Notes under the pieces: generated by a model
Databases searched by the model: none
Seen by the model: only the letters and a program-made list of their open reading frames with translations
What the model was told of the DNA's origin: nothing
Position numbers and translations under genes: made by a program
Source of the DNA: Trichoderma breve
Lineage: Eukaryota > Ascomycota > Sordariomycetes > Hypocreales > Hypocreaceae
Direction of reading: 5' to 3'
Length of the DNA: 64,000 nucleotides
Assembly (NCBI RefSeq): GCF_028502605.1
Contig: NC_079233.1
Span: 496,001 to 560,000 of the forward strand
In this document: piece after piece, positions 12,385 through 30,012 of the stretch
How the letters are laid out: each line of letters begins with the position of its first letter
How positions within the stretch are numbered: the first letter of the stretch is position 1

Positions 12385-12453
12385 ACTCCACAGCTGTTCT
12401 CAGTGTAGCTATAATTGTATGAGTAATCACTTCAGATGATGAATTCTTCTTGT
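12385..12453 (+). repeat. 69-bp direct repeat, left copy
   Basis: Matches 14454-14522 with two mismatches in 69 positions. The two copies bracket about 2 kb containing the acetolactate decarboxylase gene. The left copy runs directly into an RGQ-family exon fragment. Confidence 0.85.
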
Positions 12454-12541
12454 GGCCCCAGAAGAGTTGTCGATGCAGAACCAGCGGCACCAAGCTCAGC
12501 AACAGCAGCAGCAACAGCAGGCTCAAACACAAGCCCAAGCC

Positions 12542-12589
<48 letters not shown>

Positions 12590-12628
12590 AATTACAATGG
12601 CGAAAGATGTCTATTTTTAACCAAATAA
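12452..12628 (+). pseudogene. RGQ-family last-exon fragment (copy 1)
   Basis: The open frame starting PEELSMQNQRHQAQQQQ is nearly identical in DNA to exon 4 of the gene at 15025-15695. It then runs into a pure (GCACAG)n tract encoding Ala-Gln repeats and stops at TAA 12626-12628. There is no start codon, RG segment or upstream exon: the fragment abuts the 69-bp repeat, so it is a truncated copy. Confidence 0.6.
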
Positions 12629-13342
12629 TCCCATGAATGTTCCCATTTATTGTTTGACTTAGTTCAATGGTGACGCATGAAATCGATAAGTGATTACTGA
12701 TACTGGAGAACACGCGATAAGCACCGGCGAAACAGAGTGCCCGGAGCTATGCGCAGACCATCAAGGTTCTCAACACCAGAATATAGAGTGTCTTTTCCCA
12801 TGGAAATCTGCAATCCGCGAAGCTGACGATCAGAATCACAATCGTTCAATCTCTCAAGTCTCTGCCAGAGATTGAAACTGGATGAACTGCCCAAGACAGG
12901 TGAGATGCAATGAATCCAATTGACGATCTGATCTATTGTGTCGTTTCGCTAATGATTCTGACCAAGATCCTCACATTGCAATGCACAAAATTCGAAGCAT
13001 CAGCGCCAACTTTGCAGCATCAACAGCTGCACCCTTCAAGAACCGCGCCCCGAGACAAGAGACGGCCGCCTTCGCATTGTTCCGCTAGCGTCGTAGCCAA
13101 GACGGGAGGATCGCACATGCCTCGCATTAGTTCAGAGCTCGTGATTGGGCTGCTTAATTGTGCACGCATTTGATGGCGAATGACGACGAATGATGCACCG
13201 GCACTTACGAGAAACCTTAATCTAGTGGCGCCGTTAACGGACGGCCAGTGGAAGCCCGACAAACCTAACGGAGGGGAAACGTCATCTCGCCCATTTCACC
13301 ATCACCGCTACTTGAAGCATCGAAGAGAAGAGATATCCAACC
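12629..13342. other. Gap upstream of decarboxylase gene
   Basis: No gene supportable. The right-hand part is the presumed promoter and leader of the acetolactate decarboxylase gene; a pyrimidine-rich leader precedes its ATG. Confidence 0.5.
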
Positions 13343-14059
13343 ATGGCGTACAACGAGCTATACCAATACTCCGTCGTCTCGTCGCTCATGGAGGGCATCG
13401 GGGAAACGGGGATCCCGTATAGCGAGCTTGTCACGCACGGCAACCATGGGCTAGGCACATTTCGCCGGATGGCCGGGGAGATGATCTGCCTGGACAACGA
13501 AGTCTACCAGATGAAGTCTGATGGCTCCATTGTGACGATTGACCCTTCAACCGGTAACGATGTAGCCCCTTTCGCCATGGTTACACGCTTTCAGCCTTCC
13601 TTCACCACAAGCATTGCGTTCGATAGCAAGCAAGGCCTCTCTGACATCATGACCACACTGTTCCCAAAGACCAAGAATCGCTATTTGTCATTTCGGTTGG
13701 ACGGCCTTTTCAAGTCAGTCGCTGTACGAACCGCAGATGGGCAGAAATACAAGCACGAGAAGCTCAGAGAGCTGCACCAGCGCCAAACGACCTACGAATT
13801 TACCGATGTCCGAGGAAGCCTCATTGGGTTCCGATCACCAGAGTTTTTGCAAGGAGTTAGTGTGGCGGGAGATCATCTACACTTCATTTCCGACGAGAGA
13901 GACCGCGGCGGCCATGTACTGGATTGCAAGTCTGCGGGAGAAGTCCAATTTTCTGGGTCGATAATGAGCACTGTACATATGCAGCTCCCAGACGATGATG
14001 AATATAATGAAGCGGACCTCGAGCTTGATGATGATGGGATACGCAAGGTTGAGGGCTGA
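13343..14059 (+). CDS. Alpha-acetolactate decarboxylase
   Basis: A single-exon ORF of 238 aa spans the whole bacterial-type AlsD/BudA family. Visible motifs: LYQYSVVSSLMEG, HGNHGLGTF, GEMICLDNEVYQM, PFAMVTRFQP and the metal-binding block GDHLHFISDERDRGGHVLD. His178, His180 and His191 are the expected zinc ligands, so the enzyme should be active. It converts acetolactate to acetoin with loss of CO2. The family is mainly bacterial and occurs sporadically in fungi, so ancient horizontal acquisition is likely (inference). No signal peptide is present, so it should be cytosolic. It lies inside the repeat-rich block between 69-bp direct repeats and shares no obvious pathway with its neighbours. Confidence 0.92.
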   Translation: MAYNELYQYSVVSSLMEGIGETGIPYSELVTHGNHGLGTFRRMAGEMICLDNEVYQMKSDGSIVTIDPSTGNDVAPFAMVTRFQPSFTTSIAFDSKQGLSDIMTTLFPKTKNRYLSFRLDGLFKSVAVRTADGQKYKHEKLRELHQRQTTYEFTDVRGSLIGFRSPEFLQGVSVAGDHLHFISDERDRGGHVLDCKSAGEVQFSGSIMSTVHMQLPDDDEYNEADLELDDDGIRKVEG

Positions 14060-14453
14060 GCGCGCCATTGTTGATACAATTACTACACAATTGGTTGCGT
14101 GTGCAATGGATTTATGATGAAACAAAATTAGATGTATCTTCTATTGATCGTTTCTATCTCAAGGGCCTGCCAATTCGTTATGGACCATGTTGAGACGGCC
14201 TTTCGGTCCATCCTCAAGAGCTCACGCCTTTTTGGCTGGTAGGGGGCCTAATTGACAATAGATGTCATGAGTTCTCTCCGTCGTCGCCTCTCGACAGCGC
14301 CTTCATCAAATCTGTCAGTAATAAATCTTTGATGAATCGCATTGCCAAACATCAAGATACCGCCGCGTTGACCTATGCTTACTCTACGGCAAACTCAGAA
14401 CTTACATGTAGACTCTCAACAGCCCATCGAGATGTACAAGGTTCCATTCGCCT

Positions 14454-14522
14454 ACTCCACAGCTGTTATCAGTGTAGCTATAATTGTATGAGTAATCACT
14501 TCAGATGATAAATTCTTCTTGT
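14454..14522 (+). repeat. 69-bp direct repeat, right copy
   Basis: Second copy of the repeat at 12385-12453 (67 of 69 identical). Here it is followed by unrelated sequence rather than by an RGQ exon. Confidence 0.85.
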
Positions 14523-15024
14523 AGTTCATACATTCATATATCATCATGCCATTGGATGGGGAGTGGGGCACCTCCAGTTGTGGTCGTCCCAAAAGTGAGT
14601 TTGTTCTGAAGAAGTGAATGATGCATGGCTATGGCTCAGCCCAAAGTGATAAATGCTGGTTCTTATGCACAAACGTATGTAAATTTTCTATCCAGATCAT
14701 ACTTACGAGGGCGTTCTTCTCCCAACATCGCTATCACCATCACCATCATCAACATCATCATCACAGACTGTAAGCAATCTCCCCGTCTCAACCCCTTACT
14801 ACTATCAGTATCATTGCGCCTTGCACCTTTTCTTCTATTTCATACTCGTCTCCGTTCCCGTCTTGGTTATGTCTCCTCATTCTCACAATTTTGTCTCCAT
14901 GTCGTGCTAACAATTTGTAATCTAGTCTATCATCTCCATTTGGGATTCTTTTGTAAGCCAAACCCAATTATCCACAACACATCGCCGATCACCCAACTAA
15001 CTTAATTGAACAGAAATCTTCATC

Positions 15025-15695
15025 ATGTCGACCGTACGTTTTCCCTTTGCAATTACAACTTTGTCTCATGGTTACGCATATTTGTCCACTATTGTTAATA
15101 CGTCAAACCTAGACGATTTCCATCAACGGAGAAGCAGCCGGTGATCTTGCCACCACCAACAGCAGCAGCAACAGTATGCCAATCACTTTCGATACTTTGT
15201 ATTGTGGCTAACATCTTTATAGCAGACAACCATGTACCAGCAGCTGGCTCTGGCGCTGGGAGTTTGGGCCGTGGTGGTAGCAGAGGAGGAAGACGACGGC
15301 GACAAGGGCGAAGACAAGGGCGGCCGGCACCCTGGAAAGATGGTATGTTATCAATCGACCCTGCATTACAATATGTAACATTCTAGACTCACACTTTCAC
15401 AGCATGTCGAAGAGTTCGCGGCGGCGTGGTCACCGTCCCAACCATCATTGGGCGTGGCCAAGGCGGGGCACTGTCCCGTAAACAACTAATAGAAGCTCTG
15501 AGGATGGGCACCGTGACCCCAGAAGAGTTGTTGATGCAAAACCAGCGGCACCAAGCCCAGCAACAGCAACAGCATCAACAAGGAGCAGCGGAAGAAGAAG
15601 AGGAGCAGCAAGAGCCAGAGATGGTAGAGCCGCAGGAGCAACTCGAAGAGCTCCAACTAGAGCAGGAAGAAGAACAAGTAGGGGGTGATCTTTAG
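15025..15695 (+). CDS. RGQ-family protein, intact copy 2 (four coding exons)
   Basis: Exons 15025-15033, 15113-15173, 15223-15342 and 15403-15695 join in frame to 160 aa. Exon 1 is only three codons (MST). Exon 3 is basic and RG-rich (LGRGGSRGGRRRRQGRRQGR). Exon 4 holds the family core RGGVVTVPTIIGRGQGGALS, then RKQLIEALRMG, a Gln tract and a Glu-rich tail. Introns of 49-79 bp have GTATG/GTACG donors and AG acceptors; phases are 0, 1, 1, the same as at 17575-18252 and 21290-21756. Upstream, a CAT-rich leader, a putative 5'UTR intron (GTAAGC to CTAG at about 14772-14924) and a second one (about 14966-15011) match the leaders of other copies. The family is unknown to me. RG-rich plus poly-Gln composition suggests a nucleic-acid-binding or condensate-forming protein (inference). 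Confidence 0.7.
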
Positions 15696-16022
15696 TGTAT
15701 GGGCTATTGTATACATACACATGTGATATGATATCATTAATAGTTATGTTTATTGGTGATGCCTTCTCATTCGCCCACACCACAATCCTTATGCATGGTG
15801 GCAATATTTCTTGACGCAAACGTATACGCTACGTATGGCAGCGCCCGATTGTGTTTTGACGCTCTTGAATCTAATATTTTAGTTCATGTGACATCATTGA
15901 GCTGATTCAAAGAATAAATGGAAGCATTCATGGATTACAGAGTATTCGCCTCAAAAATGGGCATCTTTCGCCATTGTACTTTGATTCATAGCTCATCTCA
16001 ACAAATATAAAACAAAAAAAAA

Positions 16023-16494
16023 TCACCACCAACTGGTGACTCTCTGTTCTCCTTCTCCAGCTTCTTGTCCTTGTCCTTGTCCTTGTCCTTGTTCTTCTTC
16101 TTCTTCTTCTTGTTTTTGCGCCTGAGCTTGAGCTTGAGCCTGAGCTTGGGCTTGTGCCTGGGCTTGGGCTTGTGCCTGAGCCTGCTGTTGCTGATGCTGA
16201 TGCTGCTGCTGCTGGCCCTGGGTGGACACAACGGCGCCCCCTCTGCTACCGTCACGAACACCTGGGATCCTCACGATCCCACCGCGAAAACGAACAGGGC
16301 CTATTACAAGGTCGTTAGTTTGTTGAGATATAGTTAGAAGAAATGTGAAGCAAAATACCTGCTCCTTGGCCACGGCTACGACCTCGGCCACGCCCTCGGC
16401 GAGCGGCCGCCTGCTCACGTGTCGTTGGCGCCATCAAAGCTGCCATCAGCTCCTGGTTTCTCAACAGCTCTAGGAGCTGATCAATTACGGGCAT
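16023..16494 (-). CDS. RGQ-family protein, copy 3 (two coding exons)
   Basis: Exons 16494-16359 and 16300-16023 give 137 aa. The N-terminus MPVIDQLLELLRNQELMAAL is an amphipathic-helix-like stretch, then APTTREQAAARRGRGRGRSR. After a 58-bp phase-1 intron comes the core RFRGGIVRIPGVRDGSRGGA, followed by Gln and (Ala-Gln)n repeats, a Glu run, Gly-Gln repeats and a short end. The LSRxQ part of the core is replaced by VVSTQG, perhaps an old local frame change. The ATG follows one base after a putative 5'UTR intron acceptor (CCAG then A-ATG), exactly as at 26742 and 30012. The leader exon is a (CAT/CAC)n tract at 16550-16637. Confidence 0.65.
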
Positions 16495-16660
16495 TCTGGC
16501 ACCATTTTATTAGCCAATGGCCCTGAGTCTCAAAATTGGACATACTTACGTTGATGATGATGATGGTGGTGGTGGTGATGATAGTGATGGTGATGGTGAT
16601 GTGATGATGGTGATGGTGATGGTGATGGTGGTGCTGACACAACTTGAAGAAAAAACTTGA

Positions 16661-16700
16661 AAACAACAACGTGACTATACTCTTTCTTGTCAGTCAATTG
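16661..16700 (-). promoter_or_regulatory. Conserved 33-nt leader motif, copy 3
   Basis: Reads (minus strand) TTGACTGACAAGAAAGAGTA then TAGTCACGTTGTT. It aligns without gaps to motifs at 22062-22100, 26575-26614 and 30396-30432. Its 5' half resembles a branch site plus acceptor (CTGAC...AG), so it may mark the 3' end of an untranslated-leader intron rather than a factor site. Confidence 0.5.
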
Positions 16701-17340
16701 CCAAATGATGCCAATGTTTATCATGACGCTGGATGTCCGAATGCAAATGGAAATCGAAGCAGGGGGGAAGGAGATGGGGGAGCTCACACTTTGGGGGCAT
16801 GCCGTGCATTTGAAGTCCGACTATAGAGAGCGTTGCACTCCAAAGTAGCAACACAGATGGCACGTTCATATATATATGCCCATCCACCGATTTTGAAGTC
16901 CACTTTCCACGATTTGGAATGACTGGTACACCTATTGAAGTCCAGAGGATACCCATGGACCTTAGTAGGAACCTACCTGGATTGATGCGTCCGTGACGCT
17001 CACGTCATCCGACCAGCCTCGCCAACGTGTAGAGTCTATTCAGGCTGTGTGTTTCGAACGCGGCGATAGTGATATATCAACAAAGTTCTCCACAGGTTTT
17101 ACTTTTCTGAGTATGGATGTAATCGTGACAGTGGTTCTCGGAGAAGTAGCAAACGTAAGCAATGGAGGATGATGCTGGTGCTCGAAAGTTGTCCATACTT
17201 GTATACTCATGCAGTTTCTTTACCGTCTGCGTTTTCACCGCAACAACGTTATGTCGACCGTTTCTTAAGGGAATTCCTATTCAGCACCAACTTTGCTATT
17301 CAGTATCCCGTGTCGCAAACAATATCGAATGCTAGCCGAA

Positions 17341-17460
17341 ATCTATTATAGTAGTAAATACTAGAAAAGAATAGTTATAGTAGAAGATAGTAGAGATATG
17401 TAGCTATAGTAGTAACTACTAGAGGAATATAGCCATAGTAGAAGATAGTAGCAACCTGCT
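17341..17460 (-). repeat. TAGTAG-rich 3' flank tract of RGQ copy 4
   Basis: AT-rich tract of TCTACTAT-like units. A 40-bp part (17392-17431) matches the 3' flank of RGQ copy 11 (27124-27163) at 38 of 40 positions, showing that flanks travelled with the genes. Confidence 0.6.
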
Positions 17461-17574
17461 GCTGAGGCTGAGGCTGAGGCTGAGGCTGAGGTTGAGGTTG
17501 AGGTTGAAGCTGAAGCTGAGCTTGGAGCTGATGCTCCAATTCCTGGTGTTGTTGTTGTTGCTGCTGCAGCTGAT

Positions 17575-18252
17575 TCACGTAGAAATGCTGCATTTGTCCC
17601 ATCTGCTGCTCGGAGCTTGGTCTTGGTCTTGGTCTTGGGCTTGGGCCCTTGCCGCTTGTCGTTGCTGCCTCTGCTGGAGCTGGAGCTGGTGCTGGTGCTG
17701 GTCAGCCTCTAGGGCTTGTATACCTCCACCAAGGAACAGATCATATTGATGGCGCGATAAAGCGCCGCCATCAGAACGCCCAACAATGCCCTGGATAAAC
17801 GTTCGACGGCGGTCCTGGGCGTCCTGGGCGTAGCCACCTCGGTGGCTTTGTACTATATAAGTAATGTATTGTTAGTTTATTATTGTGAACGGCAAAGACA
17901 ACGGGAATAAGTTTCATACCTCCTCCTCGGGCTCCTCCTCGGCCTCTAGTAGTTCCTCTGCCCCGGGGGGCCAAACTCCCACGACCAGACTCTGATCCAA
18001 TAATACTAGTATTAGCTGCCTCTTTATTGAAACTGTAGGGCATTATAAAGACTTACGGTTGTTGGTTGTGGTGGTGGCCGGAGAGCCACCACCACCCACA
18101 TTCTCGGAGGCCCCAAGCGTCTCCGGGAGCTCGGCAAAAGCATTCGTGCGGCGATTCTATTTGTATGTTAGTGTCAATGGTCGTGAACTGGCACTAGCCA
18201 GTAACCAGAGGGCAAAGGTGTGTTGGCGAAGGTGGGAACGTACGTTAGGCAT
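17575..18252 (-). CDS. RGQ-family protein, copy 4 (four coding exons)
   Basis: Exons 18252-18244, 18156-18057, 17991-17920 and 17852-17575 join to 152 aa. The three-codon first exon (MPN) and intron phases 0, 1, 1 equal those at 15025-15695. Exon 2 encodes NRRTNAFAELPETLGASEN and a Gly/Thr-rich part; exon 3 is RG-rich (RGRGTTRGRGGARGG). Exon 4 gives VGRSDGGALSRHQYDLFLGG, then Gln-rich repeats. The frame stops at 17577-17575, but another frame continues as EQQMGQMQHF and a long Gln, then Pro-Gln repeat down to about 17460. The original tail was probably longer and was cut by an indel. A leader intron (GTGAGT to GTAATAG, about 18317-18263) matches that of the 21.7 kb copy. Confidence 0.65.
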
Positions 18253-18288
18253 GATGGTTTTCTATTACCTTATGTTAGCAAGAGTCTT

Positions 18289-18890
18289 TCACGCGGGAGA
18301 CTTGGGCAAACTCACAAAAAAAGAAAAACAATCGTAAAATAAATCAAGTCTACGTAGCATAATATTAGTAAGGTAGTAGGGTTCCCTCTTTTTAACAGAC
18401 ATGGGACTCAAAAGTGTCCCGTCAGTGAATGTCTCAAAAGACATCTCTTCATCATCCAGCTCGTCTTGAGAGCTGAGAATGACTCTGGAAGACTCCAGGG
18501 TTGTCATCGCCTTTGTAGACGGGAATGCCATTGCCTCAGTGGGCAGGATTGCATTTGTCTTCGTCTCATCGGACGGAACTGCCATCGCCTCATTCGGCGG
18601 AATTGCATTTGCCTTGGCCCCATTGGACGGAATAGTCTTCGTCTCTTTGGACGGAAAGGAAAGGGATGGAAGAAGGGGAGAGGGGAGGAGACTCTTACTG
18701 ACAGAAGCCGAGCCTTCACCAGTCACAGAGCAGGACACCATCATCTGCTTCTTGTTGGGTTCGGCCGGCTCGTTGACGATGGCCCTTTTCACTCCTGATG
18801 GTCTGCTGGCTTATCGTCGGCCTTCCTGAAGAAGTCGGAAATCCGCTTCTGGCGGGGGAGTTGGGTCTGTCGTTTGTTCTGACGAGGCAT
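18289..18890 (-). pseudogene. Small PIP-box protein ORF with apparent frameshift
   Basis: ATG 18890 opens a 33-codon frame ending at TGA 18789. It is basic and contains QKRISDFFRK, a good match to the PCNA-interacting PIP box (QxxIxxFF) at residues 15-22. A second frame running from the same place to 18289 encodes a 160-residue Ser/Pro/acid-rich sequence (VKRAIVNEPAEPNKKQ, then three PSxETKT-like repeats and SSQDELDDEEMSFETF). One missing or extra base near 18795 would join them; no intron fits. Part of the second frame overlaps the conserved leader of RGQ copy 4, so it may also be leader sequence. Function unknown; coding status uncertain. Confidence 0.35.
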
Positions 18891-20350
18891 CTCGGAATAG
18901 TGGGAGAGTGAGGGGGAAAAAAGGGTAAGCTGGGCATAAAGATCATATGAGGGCTCCAGATTACTGGAGCAAAAACAGAAAGTGGTGATGTGAACGGGGT
19001 TGTCGAATGCGAGACGCAAGAATTTTCTGTGATGTCGAAAAAGAGAACAGGAAGAGACGCGCACGCGACGCTTGGATTTCAAGAGTTACGCCTGCCTACC
19101 AGGTAGTACCTACTGACGGGTCAAGCAATTCCCAAATGGTTCCTAAATGGGACTAACGTACTTCTTCACCGTCCTGTTTCTAGACGATATGAATGCATTG
19201 ACTGATACAATTACAATGTTCTGTCCAGGATGGTTTTACAAACTTCGACGCCGTCCGATCTACCGGCATCCAAACGGGTCGAACGCTACACGAAATTTTG
19301 CCCAGTTTCACCAAGAAGAAGCTTCTGACTTGCATAGTCCCTAAATCATATTTGGTGCTGTGAAAATGAGGAAAACCCTCCACGAGAAAACTACGATCCA
19401 AGTAAAGAAGAAGGTATCTACATTTTACCGGAGGCTCGTCCATCTAGTCCTAAACGGGATTTCATGTCCAGGTACGTACTGGCGGACTAACCTAGAAGAC
19501 GCCCCAGCGAAGAGTGCGTCGCGTCTTTCAGAGGTTTCTGAGTGCCCGTAGATTGCCTCCCAGAATTGCCAATGTGCTTTGAGCATCGGGGCTGCAATCG
19601 GGAGGCCAAAAACGGGCCTTTTCTGGCAGATATATGTGTAATTTCCGTGCAATTGCACATATTGGCTGTGCTACAAATTGTTCCACCCAGAATGGGCAGC
19701 TTACCGTTTGTCCCTTGCGTTGCACGGCACCCGTTTGGTGTCATCCCCGGATCTGCATCATCTCCCCTGCCAAAATTTTGACAAGCAGCCACTAAGTCGC
19801 CATGGCGCGTAGACCGCCGTCTAGGGGCCGGCACCAAAAAGTTGGTTCATGCAGGTAACGCGCTTTTACGGTGGGCACTCTGTTTTCCATTTGCTGCAGC
19901 GCACCAACACTCTAGAACAGCTACGGAAGAGCAAACTCAGAGCACTACGGATAAGATGGAAAGCCTCGCACTGGTGGAAAAGTCTCACAAAGGCAAAACG
20001 TGTTTCAAACGTTTCAAGATGAATCACATTGCCAAAGTTTGTCGCAACCCACGAGTTCAGCGCTCCAGTATGTTTGGCTTGCCGACATTGACGTGTCCCT
20101 CTTCTGTCAATCTTCTGTAGTAGAACTTCGCGACTTCGGCTCGACGCTTGAGACCTGTGAGGGACATGGTAGTTCTGCAGGCGGCAATGAGCTTCGAGTG
20201 ACTTTGGTATTTGTTTTGCTTTCAAAAAGGGAATACGTCGCTCAATTGAGCGCCCTACAACTGCTGTTTTTCTTTGTAAAAAAAGGATTCACGTAACACT
20301 ACCGAAACTCACAGACTTTCATGCCAAGAAGGATGGGCAAAACAGCAAAA
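18891..20350. other. Gap; possible retroelement trace
   Basis: No gene supportable. A frame at 19842-20120 contains CFKRFKMNHIAKVC, resembling a retroelement zinc knuckle (CCHC) with its second Cys replaced. The similarity is short and may be chance. Confidence 0.3.
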
Positions 20351-20354
20351 AAAG

Positions 20355-20467
20355 GGCAGAACAGCCGGCATTCGAACCGCACGCTGCGCAGACATGTCGA
20401 GCCCGCCAAGACCGGTTTCCCGGGGTTAAACCACTCGGGTATCTAGCCATTGACCGACTGTTCCGCC
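20355..20467 (-). ncRNA. tRNA-like / Pol III-type hairpin candidate
   Basis: On the minus strand GGCGGAACAG (20467-20458) pairs with CTGTTCTGCC (20364-20355), 10 pairs with one G-U. A run of seven T follows directly (20353-20347), as in Pol III terminators. Inside are an A-box-like CCGAGTGGTTTAA and a B-box-like GGTTCGAATGCC about 50 nt apart, the spacing of Ser/Leu tRNAs. The D, anticodon and T stems do not fold cleanly, so this is either a decayed tRNA, a tRNA-derived SINE head or chance. Confidence 0.3.
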
Positions 20468-20692
20468 AAATGTTGAGAAAAGAATGGGAATTCTTTACTT
20501 ATCAAGGGCATTGTCTACATAGGCTGGCGTTGTGTACAGTAGAATGAAAGAAGCTTGAGGCTTTGGCCAGGGGACGGCGTTGTTTTTATACCTCAGCAGG
20601 ATGTACGGGGGATGTTACAGGGATGCGACCCCACCAACCCACTGACGGAGATCCGCTGGTTAAGCGTCAGCGACCCACGTACCTAAAGCTGT

Positions 20693-20946
20693 GGAGGCTT
20701 TCGCATCTGGGGTTTTACTGGATGTGGTGAGAACGGCGCGCTTTCGCGGCGCCAATATGCCGTCTTTCGGGGAGAGGGTCGACCAGCCCTGATGGCTGAT
20801 GAACAACGGTAGCAGCGGGCACAAGCTGAGCAGCAGTATCAGCAGGAACAGGAGCAGGAGCAGCCCCAGCCCCAGCTCCAAGTCCAGCAGGAAGAAGAGT
20901 TGGAAATGCAAATAGACGGTGTGAATGTGTCCACCAGGGACTTTGT
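20693..20946 (+). pseudogene. RGQ-family pseudogene (copy 5), TAG in Gln tract
   Basis: One frame reads GENGALSRRQYAVFRGEGRP, then ADEQR, a TAG codon, and then QRAQAEQQYQQEQEQEQ, a Pro-Gln part and the tail EEELEMQIDG. The stop lies where a CAG is expected, and the frame is open on both sides. No RG exon or start codon is visible upstream. The tail matches LDMQIDGA in the 27.5 kb copy. A TCTACT-rich tract begins shortly after (about 20970). Confidence 0.6.
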
Positions 20947-20969
20947 TAATTGGTTGGCTAGATATAAAC

Positions 20970-21140
20970 TTACTTCTATCTACTGCTATGTAGCCTTATC
21001 TACTACTTCTACTTGCAGGTACTATATCCATTTCCATCTAGTTCCATCTACTACTTCTACTTATATCTACTACGTCGATTTCCATCTACTGTCTCTACTT
21101 TCATCTACTATATCTACTGTCTCTACTTCCATTCCTTCTC
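20970..21140 (+). repeat. TCTACT-rich tract between convergent RGQ copies
   Basis: Degenerate repeats of CTACTTCTACTT and CCATCTACTA units lie between the 3' ends of copies 5 (+) and 6 (-). Confidence 0.6.
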
Positions 21141-21289
21141 GGGATCTCGGACAGTTCACGCTGACACCGGATTTTAAATCACAGTCACCAGTTTTAGGGC
21201 GCCATTCTCGCCGCGTTCGGCGAACCTTGAGAAAGATTATTGCAACAGTGCCAGTTTGTTGAATGCCAAAGAGACATAAAGAAACATAC

Positions 21290-21756
21290 CACGACCGCCT
21301 CGGACTCTTCCTTGACCTCTTCCTCGACCTCCTCCTTGTCCTTGTCCTTGTCCTTGTCCTTGTCCTTGGCCTCTTCCTCGGCCAGTCTGTACTCCTTCTC
21401 CCCGGCCTCGACCTTGGCCTCGTCCTTGGCCTCCTCGGCCCATTCCACCCGAACCAGATTCTAATTCAACAACATTAGCTTTGGTTCCAGTAATGAAAAC
21501 TACAGTGGACATACGATGGTTGTTGGGGGTGGTGGCAGAGGCACCACCACGCCCCGCGCCGGCGTTAGCCGAAACAGCAGCCACCATCTCTCGGAAGAGA
21601 TTGACAAGATTTTGGTTCTATTTATATGTTAGTGACACATCAAAAACACTGGCACCAAACTGGAACCAGAAGACGAGTGCTGGTAGACGAGTGTTGGTGG
21701 ATGAGTGTTGATGGATGAGGGTCGGTTGAAAAGAATGGAAAATGTACAGAAGACAT
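21290..21756 (-). pseudogene. RGQ-family gene (copy 6), first three exons good, last exon degenerate
   Basis: Exons 21756-21748 (MSS), 21617-21515 and 21460-21290 have phases 0, 1, 1 like the intact copies. Exon 2 encodes NQNLVNLFREMVAAVSANAG; exon 3 is a long RG/GQ block with repeated GRGRGQGQGQ. Downstream, FAERGENGALKL (about 21207-21172) recalls the core, but its frame does not join to exon 3 with any visible acceptor, and the Gln tract is missing. If intron 3 is retained, the frame ends at 21237. Upstream, a leader intron (about 21807-21767) and the 33-nt motif are conserved, so the gene may still be transcribed. Confidence 0.5.
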
Positions 21757-22061
21757 GATTGCGGTTCTGTTGCGTCGAGTTAGTGAAGGTACATATTTTG
21801 AGGGATAATTGGTAAGCTTACGAAGAAAAGAATTGTAAAATTCGTAAAATCTATGTGGCAGAATGTTAGTAAAATGGATACACAAAGATGCAAGAATGAC
21901 ACGACACAAAGAGGTGAATCGCAACAGAGAAGAAGACGAATGAGAAAGAGAAGAGGAAGACAAAGGAAGAGTTTGGGAATGCCAGGCTGTTGATTCAGAC
22001 AAGGTGGGAATGTTGAACTTACTGGTGGGAGTGCGAGAGAGAGAAGAGAGAGAAATTTTGT

Positions 22062-22100
22062 AAAACAACACGACTGGGTAGACTATGGTTAGTAAATTGC
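22062..22100 (-). promoter_or_regulatory. Conserved 33-nt leader motif, copy 6
   Basis: Minus strand TTTACTAACCATAGTCTACC then CAGTCGTGTTGTT, aligned without gaps to the motifs upstream of copies 3, 11 and 13. It lies about 310 bp before the ATG of copy 6. Confidence 0.5.
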
Positions 22101-22320
22101 CACGTGATGACGACAAGGATGATAATGTTGATGCTGATGATCATGATGGTTTTGGCCTTGATGTTGGCCAAGATCGTGAAGAAATGGGGGGGGGGGGTTC
22201 TTACTGTGGATGATGATGTTGTTGAGGAGAAGATTCCCCCAAGAAGTGTGCAGCTTGGGGGATTTCTTCAAATCGTGCGCATCTTGAGCACCAAGCGATA
22301 CCAAGGCATTCTACGGAGAC

Positions 22321-22657
22321 ATGCTCCAGTGTGGTCGAGACGGAACGCTGTCCCGAAAGCAACTGAAAGAGGCCGTCAAACTGAGCATCGCAGCCCTAGG
22401 AGAGTTGGTGATGCGGAACCAACAGTATCAGGCTCGGCAGCATAAACAAGATGCAGAAGAGGAAGAGAAACAGGAGCTCGGAGATGGTGGAGCTGCAGCC
22501 AGAGCAGGAAGTTCTTTCCACCCAGAAGCAGCTAAAAGAAGCGATGAGAATGGGAAGAATGGGCCTAGAACAGCTTACCTGTGTAGCAGAAACAACGGCG
22601 CCGGGCTCGGCAATAGCAACAGGAGTAGCAAATGCACAGAGAGAGGAGAGAGGGTGA
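22321..22657 (+). pseudogene. RGQ-family pseudogene (copy 7) with duplicated KQLKEA segment
   Basis: Frame 1 from 22321 reads CGRDGTLSRKQLKEAVKLS, then a short Gln/Arg stretch and EEEEKQELG. A second match, TQKQLKEAMRMGRMGLEQL, lies downstream in another frame (within 22451-22657), so the core helix is duplicated and frame-shifted. No RG exon is seen. A TCTACT-like tract follows (22680-22800). Probably dead. Confidence 0.5.
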
Positions 22658-22679
22658 AGCGGTGGGGGGAAAGAGGGAG

Positions 22680-22805
22680 GTACTACCGAGAAATATTTCT
22701 ACTACCACGAGATATTTTCTACTACCACAGTACCACTAGATATCTTCTACTACCGCTAGATATCTTTACTATCGCTAGATATCTTTACCATCTCTACTTG
22801 TATCT
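22680..22805 (+). repeat. CTAGATATCTTCTACTACC-type tandem tract
   Basis: Five or six degenerate units of about 20 bp built on TAGATATCTTTACTAC follow RGQ copy 7. Confidence 0.6.
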
Positions 22806-22942
22806 AGTGTATGATAACCCTTGGCGGCTTCTCATTTCCATTTACTCGATGGCAGGAAACAGGTGTCAACGCCGAGTGTCTGCATTCCATATATGATACT
22901 CTATGCATTAATATGTCCAGATGTCTACCTTTCTTTTATTTA

Positions 22943-23350
22943 TTATAGCTGATGTTGACAACACTCGGCATCTCCACAGATTCGCCAATGGTGTCCGAGA
23001 AAAAAAGACAAAGCTCCCCGCCAAACTACCAAAATTTTCTCTCTCAGAGGCTCCTGACACTTCTTCTTCTTCCTCCTCCTCCCCCCCCCTTCCCACCCAC
23101 CCGCCACATCCTGCTGCTGCCTCTCCTGGAGTAGCTGCCTCTGCACCTTCAGGAGCCGACTCTGCTCTTGTATCTGCTGCTAGTGCTGCTGGATCATCTG
23201 GGCCTGCAGTTGGTGGATCTCCTGCTGCTGCCACTGCACTTGCTGTCGCTGCTCTGCTCGGGACTCAGCGGCGGCCACAAAGCCCCAAAGGCCAGCTCGA
23301 GTAATGGCCCGAAAAAAAAAGTTCCTCTGTCTCCGCGAGAGAGACGGCAT
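22943..23350 (-). pseudogene. RGQ-family pseudogene (copy 8), TAG in Gln tract
   Basis: From ATG 23350 the frame reads MPSLSRRQRNFFFRAITRAG, then AEQRQQVQWQQQEIHQLQAQ and MIQQH, a TAG at 23182-23180, and continues open as QQIQEQSRLLKVQRQLLQER until 22943. The LSRRQ core and Gln tract identify the family. Gly-rich sequence around 23540 (GGLLGGAGDGEDGG) may be an older RG exon. One CAG-to-TAG change is the only obvious lesion in this exon. Confidence 0.45.
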
Positions 23351-24096
23351 CGCGGTGGTCTGGTCTATTGCTGGAGTTGGCTTCGACATTGTTCTGTAAC
23401 CAAAAAGAACATTAAACCTACTGCCATCTCCTCCGCATCCACCAATGCGGCTTGTAAATTGTGTCAGTAAGCCAAACCCATGCTGAAAAGAGTGTCGACG
23501 TGTGAACGTACCACCATCTTCTCCATCCCCAGCACCACCCAAGAGTCCACCATTCACGGTCTCCTAGGCCGTTTCAATCAGTCGGACCATCTGCTCCACA
23601 CGGACATTGTTGTTCGACGTCTAACGAAGGAATATAGTCAAGAACAAACAACTATCATGAAACAGATTAGCGAAATGACTGTCATAGAAAAATGGTGGGC
23701 AAACTTGCATCGAGTATAATGGTGTTGAAGGAAGAAAAGGACTGTTAATCCTTCTCCCCCTTTCTTTCGCCGCCTGTCAAGAATCAGCCGTTTGTCGTTC
23801 CCGGAGACACGGAAGCGGGTTGAAGTTTATCCTCGGACATTGTTTGAGAGGTACCTTAGTAACTCATAGCACTTCGTTGGGCTCAACAGGCACTTAGGCA
23901 CTTTCCATCCGTTTGCTTCCAGTGAGAGCCATCCAATGCTACCTCTTTGACTTGCATTGCACCAAACAACCTTCAATCTCGTACATAGGTCGGAATGACA
24001 GTCTGTGCCGTTTGCATGTCGTTTCCCTGCATCCTACCGGCTTCCCGAGAACAATTTGGCAGTCCCTCAGCAACAACCACGACACCTGATGGTTAG

Positions 24097-24499
24097 ACGA
24101 CGCCGAAAGAGCTGGCTCTGGCGCTGGAAACGGGGGCCATCGTGCCCGTAGAAGACCAAGAAGACCAAAACGTATGTCTATTTCAATCTTTGTCTGCATG
24201 CAGTATTCGATATTAATCCTGTTCGAGCAGTGCGAGAATTTCGCGGGGGGGTTGTTACTCTCCCAGAGTATGACGGACGCGGCAACGGCGATGATGGGAC
24301 ATCGTCCCGGAGCCAACTCCGAAAAGCTTTGAACCTGGGGCTCATCGATCGACGAGAGGTCAGACGGCAGCAGAAGCAGCGTCACCAGCAGCAGCAACAA
24401 CAACGGCAGATGGACGAGCTGGACCAGCAGCTGAACGAGCTGCAGTTGGACCAACAGGGTGAGGAGGAGGAAGAGGAAGGAGAACCGATGGAGATGTAG
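24097..24499 (+). pseudogene. RGQ-family gene (copy 9), last two exons intact, 5' part missing
   Basis: Exon 24097-24171 (ERAGSGAGNGGHRARRRPRR) and exon 24231-24499 join in phase 1 through a 59-bp intron. The core is FRGGVVTLPEYDGRGNGDDG then TSSRSQLRKALNLG, followed by Gln-rich and Glu-rich parts ending EPMEM. The exon 3 acceptor has the same phase as in the intact 15.0 kb copy, but no exon 1, exon 2 or ATG could be found upstream, so the gene is 5'-truncated or has an unusual start. Confidence 0.5.
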
Positions 24500-24929
24500 G
24501 TACTTTGTTCTCTACCTAGTATGCAACTCGGATTCAAGAGGAGTGTGCGCAGCAATTGAAACGTGCAATTGCTACCAATTGTAGCATGTGTGTATGTGGA
24601 AGAGCTTAGGTTGTATTGTTCTCTATCTAGCTAGTTGTCTGTGGATATGCTCCCTTCTGGAGCAGCTGGGGGCCGGGACTGAGGCAGCAGCAGCAGCGGA
24701 CAAGTGAGTCGATACGCATCAACGTGGTCATCGGCGCATTTGCATCTACTCGATCATCACTTGCAACAGCTCGCGCGTGTCAGCTGTGTGTGTCCATACG
24801 CGTGGGGATATGATGCAGCTGTGTATTAATATTCAGCATGTTCGTGAGCGGCTGATAATCACCTTGGTGGTCGCACTCGTGACGGTGGGCTGGGAAGAGC
24901 TGGGCAATACAGGAGGACGTACAAGTCTG

Positions 24930-25020
24930 TGAAGAAATATATCTACATTTACCAACTACCTAGTAGACATATCTCCATCTACTAGACATATCTACATCTA
25001 CTACAGAAATATACATGTAC
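24930..25020 (+). repeat. CATCTACTAGACATAT tract
   Basis: Degenerate ATCTACTACAGAAATATAC units, similar to other TCTACT tracts of the block. Confidence 0.5.
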
Positions 25021-25317
25021 TATCATGGCCTAACATCGCTAGTTTTGCGTCTTCCTCTTCCGCTTCTTCTTGCTTCAAACTTATTTCGGGACATGTTCGA
25101 AAACGTTCGTAAGTTCGACGTCCAACTCTTTCAACATCATCCAGAGGGCCTACTAGTCAAATTGGCATATGAGACAAGAGTCGGTTATAAAGGATTAATG
25201 TACGTAGTGATGAAGTTTCCGAAATAAACCACTGTCAATTCCATTTTAAAAAAAAAAACAACAACGAAAAAAAGCAAATCCGCCTACACCACCAGAAGGT
25301 TGCCTGAGGCCGAAGCC

Positions 25318-25978
25318 TCACTCCGCGTCGTCCATATCCATTTGTTGGGCCGGGGGAGAGGGTGGGAGGGCCAAAGCAGCCGCTTGTGCCTGTGCTTGTG
25401 CCTGTGCTTGTACCTGTGCCTGGGCCACGGCCAGGACTTGTTGTTGTTGTTGTTGTTGCTGCTGCAATTGCTGCTGCTGCTGGGGCGGGGCCTGGGCCGG
25501 AGCTAGGACTTGCTGTTGCTGTTGCAGTTGCTGATGCTGCTGCTGCTGGGCCTGAACCTGAGCTTGGGCCTGAGCCTCACTCCTCCTCGTCCACATCCAT
25601 CTGCTGGCCCGGGAGGGAGGGGGGGAGTTCCACCGCGGCGGCCTGTGCCTGGGTCTGAGCCAGGGCTTGTTGTTGCAGTTGCTGATGCTGCTGCTGCTAG
25701 GCCTGCGCCTGAGTCTGGGCTTGGGCTTGGGCTTGTGCTTGTGCTTGGGCCTGAGTCTGGGCCTGCGCTTGGTCTTGGTCTTGGGCCGGGGCCGGAGCCC
25801 GGGCCTGCTGGCGTCCGGCCAGCCGCTGGTCGTAGGCCTGGAGGCCCGCAAGCCCACGCCGACCCAGAAGCCGAACTTGCTTCCTGGAAAGGGCGCCGTC
25901 GGCGCCGAGCGAGGATGTGCTCTTGGTGGTGGTGGCGTCGGTGCTGCTGCCTTTGTTGACAGTATCTGTAGTAGACAT
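25318..25978 (-). pseudogene. RGQ-family copy 10, TAG in Gln tract and duplicated C-terminus
   Basis: ATG 25978 opens MSTTDTVNKGSSTDATTTKS, then LGADGALSRKQVRLLGRRGL and (Ala-Gln)n. A TAG at 25699-25697 ends a 93-aa product. In the same frame the sequence continues QQQHQQLQQQALAQTQAQ to QQMDVDEEE and TGA at 25577. A second, out-of-frame copy of the Gln tract and tail (ending QQMDMDDAE) follows down to 25318. The RG exon is absent. The 93-aa form could be expressed; the rest is a decayed or duplicated tail. Confidence 0.55.
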
Positions 25979-26574
25979 GTTAGTATCGTGAATAAAAGTA
26001 GAATGAACGGGTTGAAAACATACCTAGTACTTCTCTCGTCCATCCCTCCCCGTCACATCCATCTAAACGTCCTCATCACCATCTTCATCGCCGCGTTCAT
26101 CGAAGCTCTCGACTGCTCCCACCATCTTGACGAATTCGTTGATCTTTGGTCTGAAATGGTTGGTCATAGCTGCATTGAGGCCGGTAATCAGAAAAAGAGA
26201 GTTTGGCGACAAAAGATGGACGAGTTGACAGAAGAGAAAGAACATCCGAGTCGGACATTTTTGGTGCACGTTTGGCAGGCACCTGGCGCGTCACTCCAGC
26301 TGCCTGCGCGTGGTAACGTGACTTGGCAATTTCACCTTCCCCTGGCTATGTGTTTTTATCATTTGGCCGTCAACTGGCAGAAATCTGTTTGGAGAATGCA
26401 GGTAGCTATCAATAGCTGTGAGTTTCGTTCGCCTCCTGAAGGAAAACTTGTCTTCTTCAACAACATTATCATTCTGCGTGAGTCTCCCGTTCTCCTTTCT
26501 CCCTGTTTTGACTTTTACTTATGCCGGATATTCATCATCATTATCGACATATACATCTTTTATAGCACTAGTAA

Positions 26575-26614
26575 GCAGTTAACTGACAAGAAATCGTATA
26601 GCGACGCTGTTGTC
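26575..26614 (+). promoter_or_regulatory. Conserved 33-nt leader motif, copy 11
   Basis: TTAACTGACAAGAAATCGTA then TAGCGACGCTGTT, aligned without gaps to the three other motifs; it lies about 150 bp before the ATG of copy 11 and is followed by a CAT/CAC repeat. Confidence 0.5.
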
Positions 26615-26741
26615 AAGTTTTTTTTTTTTAACTTGTGTCATCATCACCACCACTACATCATCACCATCATCACCATCACCATCAAGGTAACCATATCTAG
26701 TTTTGATATGTAGAGCCTCCAGCTAATAGAATAAAACCAGA

Positions 26742-27093
26742 ATGTCGGACAACAACCAGTCCCAGCAGCTGATCGGAAATTTGTTGGCGCCAACGGCGCG
26801 TCATAGGCCCCGCCGAGGTCGTGGTCGTGGCCGTAGACAAGGTATTTCTCCTCATATTCTTCCCATACCAACAAGCTAACAATATAGTATTAGGCATTAC
26901 TCACTTTCGTCGTTGGAGGATCAGAATCCTAGGTCACAAGGGTCTTGGAAGAAACGGCGCACTTTCTCTCGTGGAGGCACAACGCTTCTTTTCGGCTGGC
27001 CTCAGGAACATAGAGCGGCATCAGCAGCAGCAACGCGAAGGAAATACTTTGGAGCTAGCCCAAGCTCAAATTGAAGCTCAAGCGCAAGCGTGA
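26742..27093 (+). CDS. RGQ-family protein, intact short copy 11 (two coding exons)
   Basis: Exons 26742-26841 and 26894-27093 give 99 aa. The first exon reads MSDNNQSQQLIGNLLAPTAR then RPRRGRGRGRRQ; the second has RIRILGHKGLGRNGALSLVE, FFSAGLRNIERHQQQQ and an Ala-Gln end. The 52-bp intron has GTATTT, branch GCTAAC and two possible acceptors (26888 or 26893), both in frame and differing by two residues. The ATG directly follows a putative 5'UTR intron (donor about 26686, acceptor CCAG), preceded by a CAT/CAC-rich leader. This is the shortest complete family member, with little poly-Gln expansion. Confidence 0.65.
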
Positions 27094-27109
27094 AAGGGTC
27101 GGACGCCTG

Positions 27110-27460
27110 CCACTGTAGCTATGTATATTCCTCTAGTAGTTACTACTATAACTACACATCTCTGCTGGAGAAGAAGAAGAAAGAAGAAGAAGATGATGAT
27201 GATGTACCCATTTGTGGCAACTTTTTTGAAGGTGACGAATACGTTTTTCTTCTTTTGCCTTGCCTTTCATCATTACTTTTACTTCCATCTTATCCCATCT
27301 ACTATCTCTACTTCCGTCTACTATTTCTACTTGCATCTACTCTCTCTCCTTCTGTCTACTACTTCTACGTACATCTACTCTCTCTACTTCCATCGATCTT
27401 CATCTATTTCCTCTACTTCCATTTACCTCCATCTACTGCCTCTACTGTCATTCATTCTTT
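27110..27460 (+). repeat. TCTACT-rich tract 3' of RGQ copy 11
   Basis: Begins with the 40-bp segment shared with the 3' flank of copy 4, passes through a GAAGAAGAA run, then becomes a long degenerate CATCTACTATCTCTACTTC repeat. Confidence 0.6.
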
Positions 27461-27471
27461 GGGACAATCCG

Positions 27472-27732
27472 AGATGCCCAAAGCCGTGGCCGTGGAAGCT
27501 TCCGCCTCTGAGGTTTTGCCGGCCGTGGTGCCGAGGGCACCCTTTCGCGGAGGCAGTTCGCCCTTTTTTCTGCGGGTGGCCGTCCTGCCCTTGAGGCAGA
27601 TGAGCAGCGGCTGGCCAAGGCATAGGCAAAGGCACAGGCACAGGCACAGGCACAGGTCTAGCAGGAGGAAGAGCTGGATATGCAAATAGACGGCGCTGAT
27701 GCATCAACCGAGTTTTGCAATAGTCCAAGGTG
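27472..27732 (+). pseudogene. RGQ-family pseudogene (copy 12) with three nonsense codons
   Basis: One continuous frame reads DAQSRGRGSFRL, TGA, GFAGRGAEGTLSRRQFALFS, then ADEQRLAKA, TAG, AKAQAQAQAQV, TAG, QEEELDMQIDGADAS. All three stops are explained by C-to-T changes (CGA to TGA; CAG to TAG twice), and the frame is otherwise undisturbed. RG segment, core, Ala-Gln tract and acidic tail are all here without introns between them, so intron 3 is missing in this copy. Confidence 0.6.
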
Positions 27733-27919
27733 CTTGGAAGTGTTCGTGGAAGGTTCGTGGGGGTCAAACAAAATGTGCTGCTCGGGCTGCAAGTACTCGG
27801 CGTCACCTTGTTTGGTCGTGCTCGCTGTGGTGGAAAGAGGCTATCTAAAATAGCCATATAGCAGTCAGCTTTGTTGTTCAAGATGGGGTGGTGTCTTCAT
27901 CATCTTGCCCGCGGTTTGA

Positions 27920-28778
27920 TGGCGTAGTCTTTGCGGAGAGTGCGTCGACTGCAAGGGCCCAGTCGAGAAGCGCTTGAAGGGATATGTTGGAACCACCCTG
28001 CCTGGAGCATTTTCAGACTTCACCGTCGTCGATGCTCGCTATGCCGTCGTTCTTCCAGATACGATGAGCTTTGTTACCGCTGCTCCGTTGACTTGTGCAG
28101 GAGCTACAGCGTGGAGAGCAGTTCAGTCGACAAAGGCGCAGCCAGGAGAATGGATCGGTATCGTTGGTAGCGGAGGTGGTTTGGGTAACTATTCTCTTGT
28201 ATCAGCGTAGCTTGAGATCACATCCTGACAACTCTCGAACAGGTCATCTCGCCATCCAATTTGCCGTCAAGGCAGGCGTCAACGTAATCGCTGTAGATGC
28301 CCGCGAAGAAGGCCTTGAGTTGTCGAGAGAATGTGGAGCTCAACTCGTGCTTGATGCCCGCAAAGGAGATGAACAACTGACAACCGCTATAACAGAAGCT
28401 ATTGGGGATGATAAGATTAAAGCGACTATCGTACTGTCAGACCACGAGACAGCGTGTGATACCGCTTGTGCAATCACTCGACCTCATGGGACCATCATTC
28501 AGGTGGCTCAGCCTCTACGAGTGTCGTTTCCCTTTCGCGCCATCATCTTCAAGGACCTGCATTTCGAGGGATCGTTGGTGTCAGGTCAGAAAGAACTCGA
28601 GGACATGATCCATTTCGTGTTGAAGCACAAGATTCGTGTCAAAACCAACATTTACGAAGATCTCGACTCTGTCAATCTCGTAGCTGATGCTGCGCGTTCG
28701 GGGAAAGTGAGCGGGAAGCTGGTGGTGGTCTTGGATCGCGCGGCTGTCGAAGCTGACAAGGCCAAAGATTGCTGGTAG
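27920..28778 (+). pseudogene. 5'-truncated zinc-type alcohol dehydrogenase
   Basis: Two exons, 27920-28184 and 28243-28778, join in frame (phase 1, 58-bp intron). They encode a structural-zinc remnant (LCGECVDC), GTTLPGAFSDF, APLTCAGATAWRA, the NAD-binding IVGSGGGLGHLAIQFA and the C-terminal half of a yeast-ADH1-type medium-chain dehydrogenase, ending at TAG 28778. About the first 100 residues, with the catalytic-zinc Cys and GHE motif, are missing, and the structural-zinc loop is shortened. No upstream exon was found; a TGA lies just before. Probably a gene fragment carried into the repeat block. Confidence 0.6.
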
Positions 28779-29176
28779 GATTTGATGCTTAAGATCAACG
28801 CTAATCGTTCGTGGTCTCATTGAAGAAGAGAGGTGGAAAAGGCATGGAAAATTACTCGCAAAGACGGAGCAGCTGTGCTGGTCATCTTGCGAAACCAGTA
28901 TGTGTACCATCTATACTGTGTGAATTATTGGAGAGCACTGTTTCACCGTAGCCATTGTCTACAGGTTGTGGAGGAATGATTACCTCTGCCGTCTGGCTCG
29001 TTGCTGAAACTGGTATTGTGCAATCTCTATATTTACGCATAGTTGAACAAGGACTGAGAATAGAAGCAAAGGATACATGCAGGTAGAAAACTCAGTGAAT
29101 GGCACTATACATCAAGCATGTCGCCAAAATGCATGTATTTTGGCATCCTACTCTTTCGCCTTCTTCACTGCTCGGA
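28779..29176. other. Gap without supportable gene
   Basis: Short non-coding stretch between the dehydrogenase fragment and a decayed RGQ copy. Confidence 0.4.
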
Positions 29177-29392
29177 TCATGACTGAGGCTGAGGTTGTTG
29201 AGCCTGCTACTGAAACTGATGCTTCAAGTACTTGTAGTGCTGCACTTGGGCTAGCGATTGTTTTGCATGTGCTAGATTGTGAATACTCCTGATACTTCTG
29301 GAGTCGGTATTAGGTCCTTTAGAGAGTAGTTGGTACTGTCGCGCGACGCAACCTTCACCTCCTTTTTCTTGTTCCTCGCCCGCTTCGACCAC
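29177..29392 (-). pseudogene. Strongly decayed RGQ-family copy 14
   Basis: The frame contains EGCVARQYQLLSKG, which aligns loosely with the GALSRHQYDLFLGG core, then HYKYLKHQFQ, TAG, QAQQPQPQS and TGA. The TAG sits in the Gln-rich part, as in copies 5, 8, 10 and 12. Assignment is tentative. Confidence 0.3.
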
Positions 29393-29423
29393 CTCGAATT
29401 ATGGTGCCGACAATAGACCTCGA

Positions 29424-29492
29424 TAGGGTAGATGTAGTAGATGTGGTAGATGTAGTAGATGTGGTAGATGTAGTAGATGTAGTAGATGTGGT
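29424..29492 (+). repeat. GTAGATGTG 9-bp tandem repeat
   Basis: About seven and a half units alternating GTAGATGTA and GTAGATGTG. Confidence 0.85.
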
Positions 29493-29558
29493 AATAAACA
29501 CTTGTTAAGCTAGGTTTACGAAAGCTGGTAAATGTGGGTTTTAAAGACAACAGCAACA

Positions 29559-30012
29559 TCATCTGAGAGTAGAATCAGCTTCCAAATCCTCGCCCCCCGC
29601 AACGGACATTGCAGGTCCTTCTTCTCCTTCTTCTTCTCCTTCTTGCCCTTGGGCCACAGGCCCAACCAGCGCGGGGTCTGGTGCAGCGGCAGCAGCAGCA
29701 TCAGCATCAGCAGCGGTGGTGGTGGCCAGGAGGGAGTCGATGCCCTCCTCCACCAGTCTTTGCATCTGCACGCGGGACAGCGTGCCACGGGCCCCAGCCC
29801 CAACAAACCCAGGCAAACGCACAATTCCACCTCGGTCTCTTCCCCCATCACCTCCCCCCCCCCCCCCCCCCCCCCCCTCTTCATCCTCTTTCTGTCCATC
29901 CCCGTCCTCCTCCACGGCCACTCCAGCCACTATTCTGCCCTTGCTGGGTCCCTTCCTGCGCCGTTGGCGCCGACAACACTCTCACAAGCTCCTGCAGCTC
30001 GAGTACGGGCAT
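29559..30012 (-). pseudogene. RGQ-family gene (copy 13) interrupted at a 24-base G run
   Basis: ATG 30012 begins MPVLELQELVRVLSAPTAQE, the same N-terminus as copy 3, then an RG-rich part that stops at TGA just before the homopolymer. One base off, the frame gives GGDGGRDRGGIVRLPGFVGA, GTLSRVQMQRLVEEGIDSLL, an Ala/Asp-rich stretch and EEGEEGPAMSVAGG, ending at 29559. The poly-G run (minus strand of 29854-29877) separates the two frames and no intron is visible there. Either a slippage mutation broke the gene, the run length varies between cells or strains, or the assembly is wrong. The leader has the conserved intron (GTAAGT to TATTAG) ending one base before the ATG. Confidence 0.5.
29854..29877 (-). 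repeat. 24-base G homopolymer (C on + strand) inside RGQ copy 13
   Basis: Uninterrupted C run on the + strand lying in the Gly-coding part of copy 13. Confidence 0.9.

Follow-up and report, generated by a model that had tools for sequence, protein, structure and literature searches.

A clustered gene family with an arginine-glycine segment and a common core in Trichoderma breve

RNA-binding proteins with arginine-glycine (RGG/RG) segments include the Nop1/fibrillarin, Gar1 and Npl3 types, in which a companion folded RNA-binding domain is common but not universal, and Whi3-type proteins are polyglutamine RNA-binding condensate proteins. Many orphan genes are a striking feature of Trichoderma genomes, their origin being left open in the parts of the study available to us (PMC6560777), and orphan clusters of up to eight genes have been reported in T. 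reesei (Kubicek et al. 2019, PMC6560777). Here, we report a clustered gene family in Trichoderma breve, located in a stretch of 64,000 nucleotides (C2:496001-560000; the window), with related copies on both strands between 12.45 and 30.01 kb. The family has a common core, two clusters in the genome, relatives in other Trichoderma species and a third-position bias in three paralogue pairs. No description of it was found in the portions available to us of the literature on Trichoderma orphan genes and fungal RGG/polyglutamine proteins, and locus tag T069G_02423, deposited for one copy, gave no literature match.

Common core and two genomic clusters

Thirteen copies, lettered A to M, were recognized by reading the window DNA in all frames, and exon structures were modelled from splice signals, not transcripts. 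The family core has the consensus RGGVxxPxxxGRGxxGTLSRxQ; a sequence-only reading of the window had failed to recognize it, and no Pfam or NCBIfam model matched it at cut-off. In a left-out test, each of 11 cores (A and F not included) was removed and sought in the six-frame window with a profile of the other ten. E, L, M, B, D and G (6 of 11) were recovered at an expectation value (E) of ≤7.7e-5, which is more than a random match; J (0.019) and K (0.024) were weak, and I, C and H were missed. The top non-member was the copy A stretch in six runs (I, D, L, K, M and C; E 0.0023 to 0.014), scoring above K in K's own run, and an unrelated stretch in five (B, G, E, J and H; E 0.063 to 0.53). Other support was found for C (DNA similarity to K, 3e-22; relative P0017), A (DNA similarity to B and C) and F (DNA similarity to D, plus relative P0019). 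About fourteen copies had been claimed for the window; 12 of the 13 lettered ones have support from a core profile, from similar DNA or from relatives, and H (23.06-23.70 kb), with a left-out E of 82, was dropped.

The T. breve genome (38.5 Mb, nine contigs) was searched with ten single-protein queries, scoring the best candidates only, so that copies may be missed, and one place can give several match rows. All rows (49/49) fell in two places on contig C2 (7,138,618 bases), the window cluster and C2:5.20-5.27 Mb. Because they do, the family is unlike a transposon open reading frame, an identity that the sequence-only reading had allowed for. Four family copies in the second cluster (N1 to N4) are new. 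When 100 kb of the second locus (ten contiguous 10-kb stretches) was searched with a profile built from twelve cores of the cluster-1 type, including four from proteins of other species, the four copies came out on top, with E values of 3.1e-11, 9.5e-8, 1.7e-7 and 4.8e-7, and the next best match was at 0.34. In the reverse direction, a profile of the four cluster-2 cores alone, free of window sequence, ranked eight window copies first (B, 1.2e-9; M, 2.6e-7; I, 1.9e-6; L, 5.7e-6; D, 0.0016; E, 0.0023; G, 0.0033; J, 0.018). K gains nothing from this profile, because it came ninth at 0.76, level with the first non-member (0.77), and C, A, F and H were not among the 14 best rows.

N1 (5241201-5242227, + strand) and N2 (5268218-5269027, − strand) each have six modelled exons with intron phases 0,1,1,1,1, N3 (5267291-5267961, + strand) has five with phases 0,1,1,1, and in N4 (5200781-5201288, − strand) two exons joined in phase 1 were seen; all cluster-2 splice sites were picked by eye to hold the frame, and the phases are therefore models. 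N1 to N3 start with a bare ATG exon followed by a phase-0 intron, and all later introns, like that of N4, are in phase 1. Of the exons that follow, the first codes for a short helix-like segment with its Gly-rich linker and the next for an RG-/Gly-rich segment (the two are fused in N3); then come a basic exon of 15 or 21 bases (PRRKRG in N1), a Lys/Glu exon and a last exon that carries the core and the acidic tail. Immediately upstream of N2's first exon (C2 ~5269050-5269350) lies what is by eye a ubiquitin repeat and part of another, with an altered end.

The RG-rich and Gln-rich composition described earlier was confirmed for the window family, but the expanding Gln tract described as a family trait is limited to cluster 1 and absent from N1 to N4. 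The core, not the Gln tract, marks the family, because the four cluster-2 copies end in Lys/Glu/Asp tails; an eye-catching low-complexity part can mask the part that is truly shared.

Protein collections were searched with window-cluster sequences, by a method that needs shared 5-residue words and in one search scored the best 7996 candidates; cluster-2 sequences were searched within their own genome. Nineteen relatives were found, and 13 of the 13 with an assigned species are from Trichoderma: one each from T. breve (P0001, the window locus itself), T. harzianum, T. guizhouense, T. compactum and T. camerunense, and two each from T. sp. SZMC 28012, T. lentiforme, T. cf. simile and T. afarasin. 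P0016 (E 0.15) was retained because its core resembles those of P0012 and P0015 by eye. In four species the paired relatives come from contigs of equal length and have near-by locus tags (006293/006294, 010263/010266, 306764/306770 and 391121/391128), which suggests clustering there too. The joins and frames modelled for D, F and C are also used by P0009, P0019 and P0017, respectively, and seven B-type proteins retain the EPEM and EQLEELQ stretches although their Q/E part varies in length. Deposited family proteins are labelled hypothetical or uncharacterized, and exon choice varies among them; the core and exon plan given here make the family concrete.

Window copies, reading frame and flanks

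Full copies with a short start, RG-rich exon, core, Gln tract and characteristic end had been described. None in the window has all of these parts in a single intact frame, and the ends quoted, QMDMDD and LDMQIDG, are those of J and L (a similar LEMQIDG is in E), each behind stop codons and not part of an intact copy. Three copies, B, D and K, are open and carry a core; C is likewise open but without LSRxQ, E, J, L and M are interrupted, and F, G, I and A are partial.

Copy B (15025..15695, + strand) is open, with 160 amino acids in exons 15025-15033, 15113-15173, 15223-15342 (RG) and 15403-15695 (core, Q and acidic tail), modelled from splice sites, phases and the B-type proteins P0002-P0006 and P0010. 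It is deposited as T069G_02423 (P0001), with exon 3 read in a different frame. Copy D (17575..18252, − strand) is open, with 152 amino acids in exons 18252-18244, 18156-18057, 17991-17920 (RG) and 17852-17575; its exon 2-3-4 joins recur in T. cf. simile P0009, the first half of whose model is a K-like part. Copy F (21290..21756, − strand) has exons 1-3 only (start, N-terminal segment and RG); its third donor leaves phase 1, but a downstream core exon was not found. The N-terminal and RG reading of its relative P0019 is identical in frame to the F model. The three-codon first exon noted at 15.0, 17.6 and 21.3 kb is present in B, D and F, and the phases 0,1,1 ascribed to all three hold for B and D, with 0,1 in F.

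Copies C (16023..16494, − strand; open, 137 amino acids; exons 16494-16359 and 16300-16023) and K (26742..27093, + strand; open, 99 amino acids; exons 26742-26841 and 26894-27093) each consist of two coding exons with a phase-1 join, and a likely 5' untranslated intron immediately precedes the start codon. T. afarasin P0017 retains LSRRE where C lacks the LSRxQ part, and the join of K is matched in P0007, P0008 and P0011. The stretch behind K (27090-27490, + strand) is open in another frame, in which 124 of 134 amino acids are kept in the read-through model of P0013, a relative of K, an unexpectedly high number.

Copy E (20688..20919, + strand) consists of a core and tail interrupted by stops (left-out profile, 4.2e-12), as does L (27470..27693, + strand; left-out profile, 2.9e-11; relatives P0012, P0015 and P0016), to which its DNA is 65% identical. 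E and F are separate copies because they face each other, and F as the source of E was thereby ruled out. Copy J (25318..26043, − strand; core 25936-25874) has a repeated Q tail (77%) and interrupting stops, and is supported by the left-out (0.019) and cluster-2 (0.018) profiles and by DNA similarity to L (9e-5). Copy M (29562..30014, − strand; left-out profile, 1.7e-10) has its N-terminal/RG part and its core in different frames, separated by a run of 24 G (24 C on the forward strand, 29854-29877) that could be an assembly or homopolymer error. Copy G (22321..22576, + strand) comprises a core piece (22333-22446) and a second partial core (22520-22576), with tblastn matches at 9e-8 and 0.19, a left-out profile match at 7.7e-5 and relative P0018. 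Copy I (24097..24499, + strand) has an R/G-rich piece, core exon, Q tract and acidic tail EPMEM; its start was not found and the left-out profile failed, and it is supported by tblastn with B (3.6e-7) and by P0018. Copy A (12452..12681, + strand) is a chimera of a part like B exon 4 (12452-12519; 89.7% identical), an Ala-Gln tract and a part like the 3' flank of C (12588-12681; 77%), and 12385-12453 repeats DNA upstream of B (97%), the 69-base stretch being duplicated at 12385 and 14454.

Flanks are also shared. The promoter-like stretch and CAC/CAT-rich leader of C (16591..16701, − strand) is common to K (26575..26684, + strand; 80.7% over 114 columns, 3e-22), a leader stretch of M (30394..30431, − strand) matches F at 22060-22097 (81.6% over 38 bases, 8e-5), and D and F share leader and intron stretches. 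With leaders common to C/K, F/M and D/F, the units were therefore duplicated together with their leaders. A single deposited model, P0017, has two cores, and in P0018 a G-like part is joined to an I-like one; we infer that repeats served as exchange points between copies.

Two frames are possible for exon 3 of B. P0001 is reproduced exactly by its three window exons, 15025-15033, 15223-15342 and 15387-15695 (exon 2 skipped), and reads exon 3 in an acidic frame as QTTMYQQLALALGVWAVVVAEEEDDG. This frame could be the true product, or both could be made, giving a charge switch by splicing in which omission of exon 2, together with an acceptor lying 16 bases further upstream, would yield an acidic segment and still reach the same core. 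The deposited P0004, P0005 and P0010 also read the acidic frame, and in B, D and F its codon usage is better than that of the RG frame (codon adaptation index in B, 0.73 versus 0.56). We compared exon 3 by eye with P0004, P0005 and P0010, counting each change once as a single base change from the T. breve codon and excluding P0010 within the acidic repeat, where alignment is impossible. Of the 14 changes inferred, 10 are silent in the RG frame whichever minimal path is taken (11 with the better of two paths), against an expected silent fraction of 0.38 to 0.45 (P 0.012 to 0.044). Moreover, the models of the D and F relatives (P0009 and P0019) take the RG frame, and R/G codons tend to keep a shifted frame open. 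We favour the RG frame on two grounds, the models of the relatives and an exon 2 whose end and phase agree in B, D and F; the substitutions favour it modestly, and the codon-usage test is ranked lower but stands. We consider an acidic product or a charge switch improbable, and the deposited 15.0-kb gene uses the frame that the species comparison disfavours.

Outside the copies, a CTAC-rich tract (27201..27550, + strand) lies downstream of K, with similar tracts at 20901-21250 and 22601-22850 and, reversed, at 29301-29650. Of the six rows from two DNA queries of the genome, five fell in the window cluster and the sixth, a CTAC tract, on C3. The tracts were rejected as a family mark, the similar one at C3:5587908-5588021 having no family core in 9.9 kb; some 1.4 kb away from it is an open frame, at least 1,174 residues long, with what we take to be a P-loop-like motif. 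Between A and B is an open alpha-acetolactate decarboxylase gene (13343-14059, + strand; PF03306, 1.2e-75), an enzyme better known from bacteria. By eye, a putative zinc-type alcohol dehydrogenase gene lies between L and M (27890-28780, + strand), and 31100-33250 (− strand) holds two tandem similar multi-exon genes that look HsbA-like (hydrophobic surface-binding).

Selection, possible role and rival readings

With a little less than even confidence, we read the twelve window copies and the four in the second cluster as an unnamed Trichoderma gene family, the intact members of which likely make nuclear RNA-binding, self-associating proteins, a role taken from composition alone. Repeated RG/RGG motifs occur in the spliced models (B, GRGGSRGG; K, RGRGRG; F, GRGRG; N1, RRGGRGGRGGGG). 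RG segments with a basic stretch next to them hint at RNA contact in the nucleus, and helices of the Gln or Lys/Glu kind at self-association. The AlphaFold model of the K relative P0008 (mean predicted local distance difference test [pLDDT] score, 59; 37 of 101 residues at 70-90) is poor overall; it shows a short helix at the N terminus, a middle part with pLDDT <50 and, beginning at the LS motif, a long helix at the C terminus.

Under such a role, each exon would be one module. The N-terminal helix-like stretch and Gly-rich linker would come first, followed by an RG exon contacting RNA; the basic stretch of cluster 2 (the 15- or 21-base exon) may act as a nuclear signal; and in the last exon the LSRxQ core would start a helix that runs into the Gln/Ala-Gln or Lys/Glu tail and sets assembly. 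Low-complexity tracts may be joints for recombination between copies, compare the chimeric A. Because all modelled introns after the first are in phase 1, the frame would survive the loss, repetition or exchange of internal exons. A bolder and rather doubtful extension is that a new ~30-residue Trichoderma domain ends a phase-1 exon chain and that the two clusters keep yielding new RNA-binding scaffolds. If so, the helix, RG, basic micro-exon, Lys/Glu and core exons would be swappable in frame, with tails that differ in charge and stickiness.

Purifying selection in the past is suggested by an excess of third-position differences in three paralogue pairs: codon positions 1/2/3 differ 33/36/60 times over 107 codons (chi-square p = 0.006; Q tract and B-A excluded), in pairs aligned protein-guided, which leans to fewer amino-acid changes. 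Nonsynonymous (dN) and synonymous (dS) divergence are 0.27 and 1.29 for B-G, 0.48 and 1.20 for B-I (Q residues included), 0.41 and saturated for D-L, and 0.022 and 0.452 for B-A, over only 18 codons.

Besides that alignment lean and the codon usage of exon 3, several results weigh against a functional RNA-binding family. Many window copies are broken. Between P0013 and K, the core exon is identical at 58 of 65 positions and the non-coding stretch behind K at 124 of 134; with the flank at least as conserved as the core exon, K shows no sign of extra constraint in this comparison, and its stop is not kept in P0013, whose model reads through. No Pfam match above cut-off, and so no RNA-binding domain, was found in B, D, C, K or the N1-N4 core-to-tail pieces, and no NCBIfam model reached cut-off for the proteins scanned. 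The model of the B relative P0005 has a mean pLDDT of 46, with a possible hairpin before the helix. Separately, a B-type protein profile gave no match against PDB below E 0.57, and the core of B has a weak PF13136 match (E 0.016) that does not reach its cut-off and does not appear among the matches of D or K. To the eye, the DGTLSxxQ half of the core resembles an EF-hand, a reading that was rejected, as it lacks the acidic residues of the loop and matches no Pfam model at cut-off.

Alternatively, the copies might be inert remains of genes or near-genes that local duplication of repeat-rich DNA had multiplied, which we regard as somewhat unlikely. The stops and frame breaks in E, J, L and M, the core missing in F and in part in C, the chimeric A and the K-P0013 comparison all fit such decay, as does the report, in the parts of the source available to us, that in T. 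reesei and T. virens expression is limited to ~40% of the orphan genes (PMC6560777). Against inert copies stand the third-position bias, with dN/dS <1 in three paralogue pairs, the joins of C, D, F and K being matched in other species' proteins, and the open multi-exon models of cluster 2. A selfish family of the spore-killer or driver type, in which turnover and dead copies would come from repeated rise and defeat, is very unlikely. The family would resemble driver families in being multi-copy, clustered and often broken, with its species-assigned relatives in one genus, and residues 55-119 of B match PF15647 (restriction-endonuclease-fold toxin). That match is below threshold (E 0.013; 16.2 bits versus a cut-off of 25), was not listed for D, C, K or N1-N3, and for N4 was not among the best 25 of 50 weak rows. 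For the remains of a mobile element, which we hold to be barely credible, one could point to the repeat-rich DNA and the 69-base duplicate at 12385 and 14454; yet neither a transposase nor a reverse transcriptase family turned up in Pfam scans of 16 proteins (no search for terminal repeats was made), and every match row lies within the two clusters.

Comparison with known systems

As in RGG/RG proteins, the T. breve family has an RG-rich segment, with an adjoining basic stretch in cluster 2; it differs in being small, in having its own core and in lacking a folded RNA-binding domain at the Pfam cut-off. The likeness to Whi3-type proteins would lie in a Gln-rich tract beside a likely RNA-contact region, with the differences that no RNA recognition motif was found in the family and that cluster 2 has no Gln tract. 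With open, broken and chimeric copies side by side and a distant sister cluster as well, it would be possible to follow duplication, the exchange of exons and tail expansion one step at a time. Like the Trichoderma orphan genes described in the parts of PMC6560777 available to us, the family has no known domain, and all of the relatives found with an assigned species are from the genus; unlike them, it forms a larger cluster and a second one, and its copies have one core and one exon plan in common. Those parts of the source do not back duplication as the major origin of orphan genes, whereas in the T. breve family duplication is plain.

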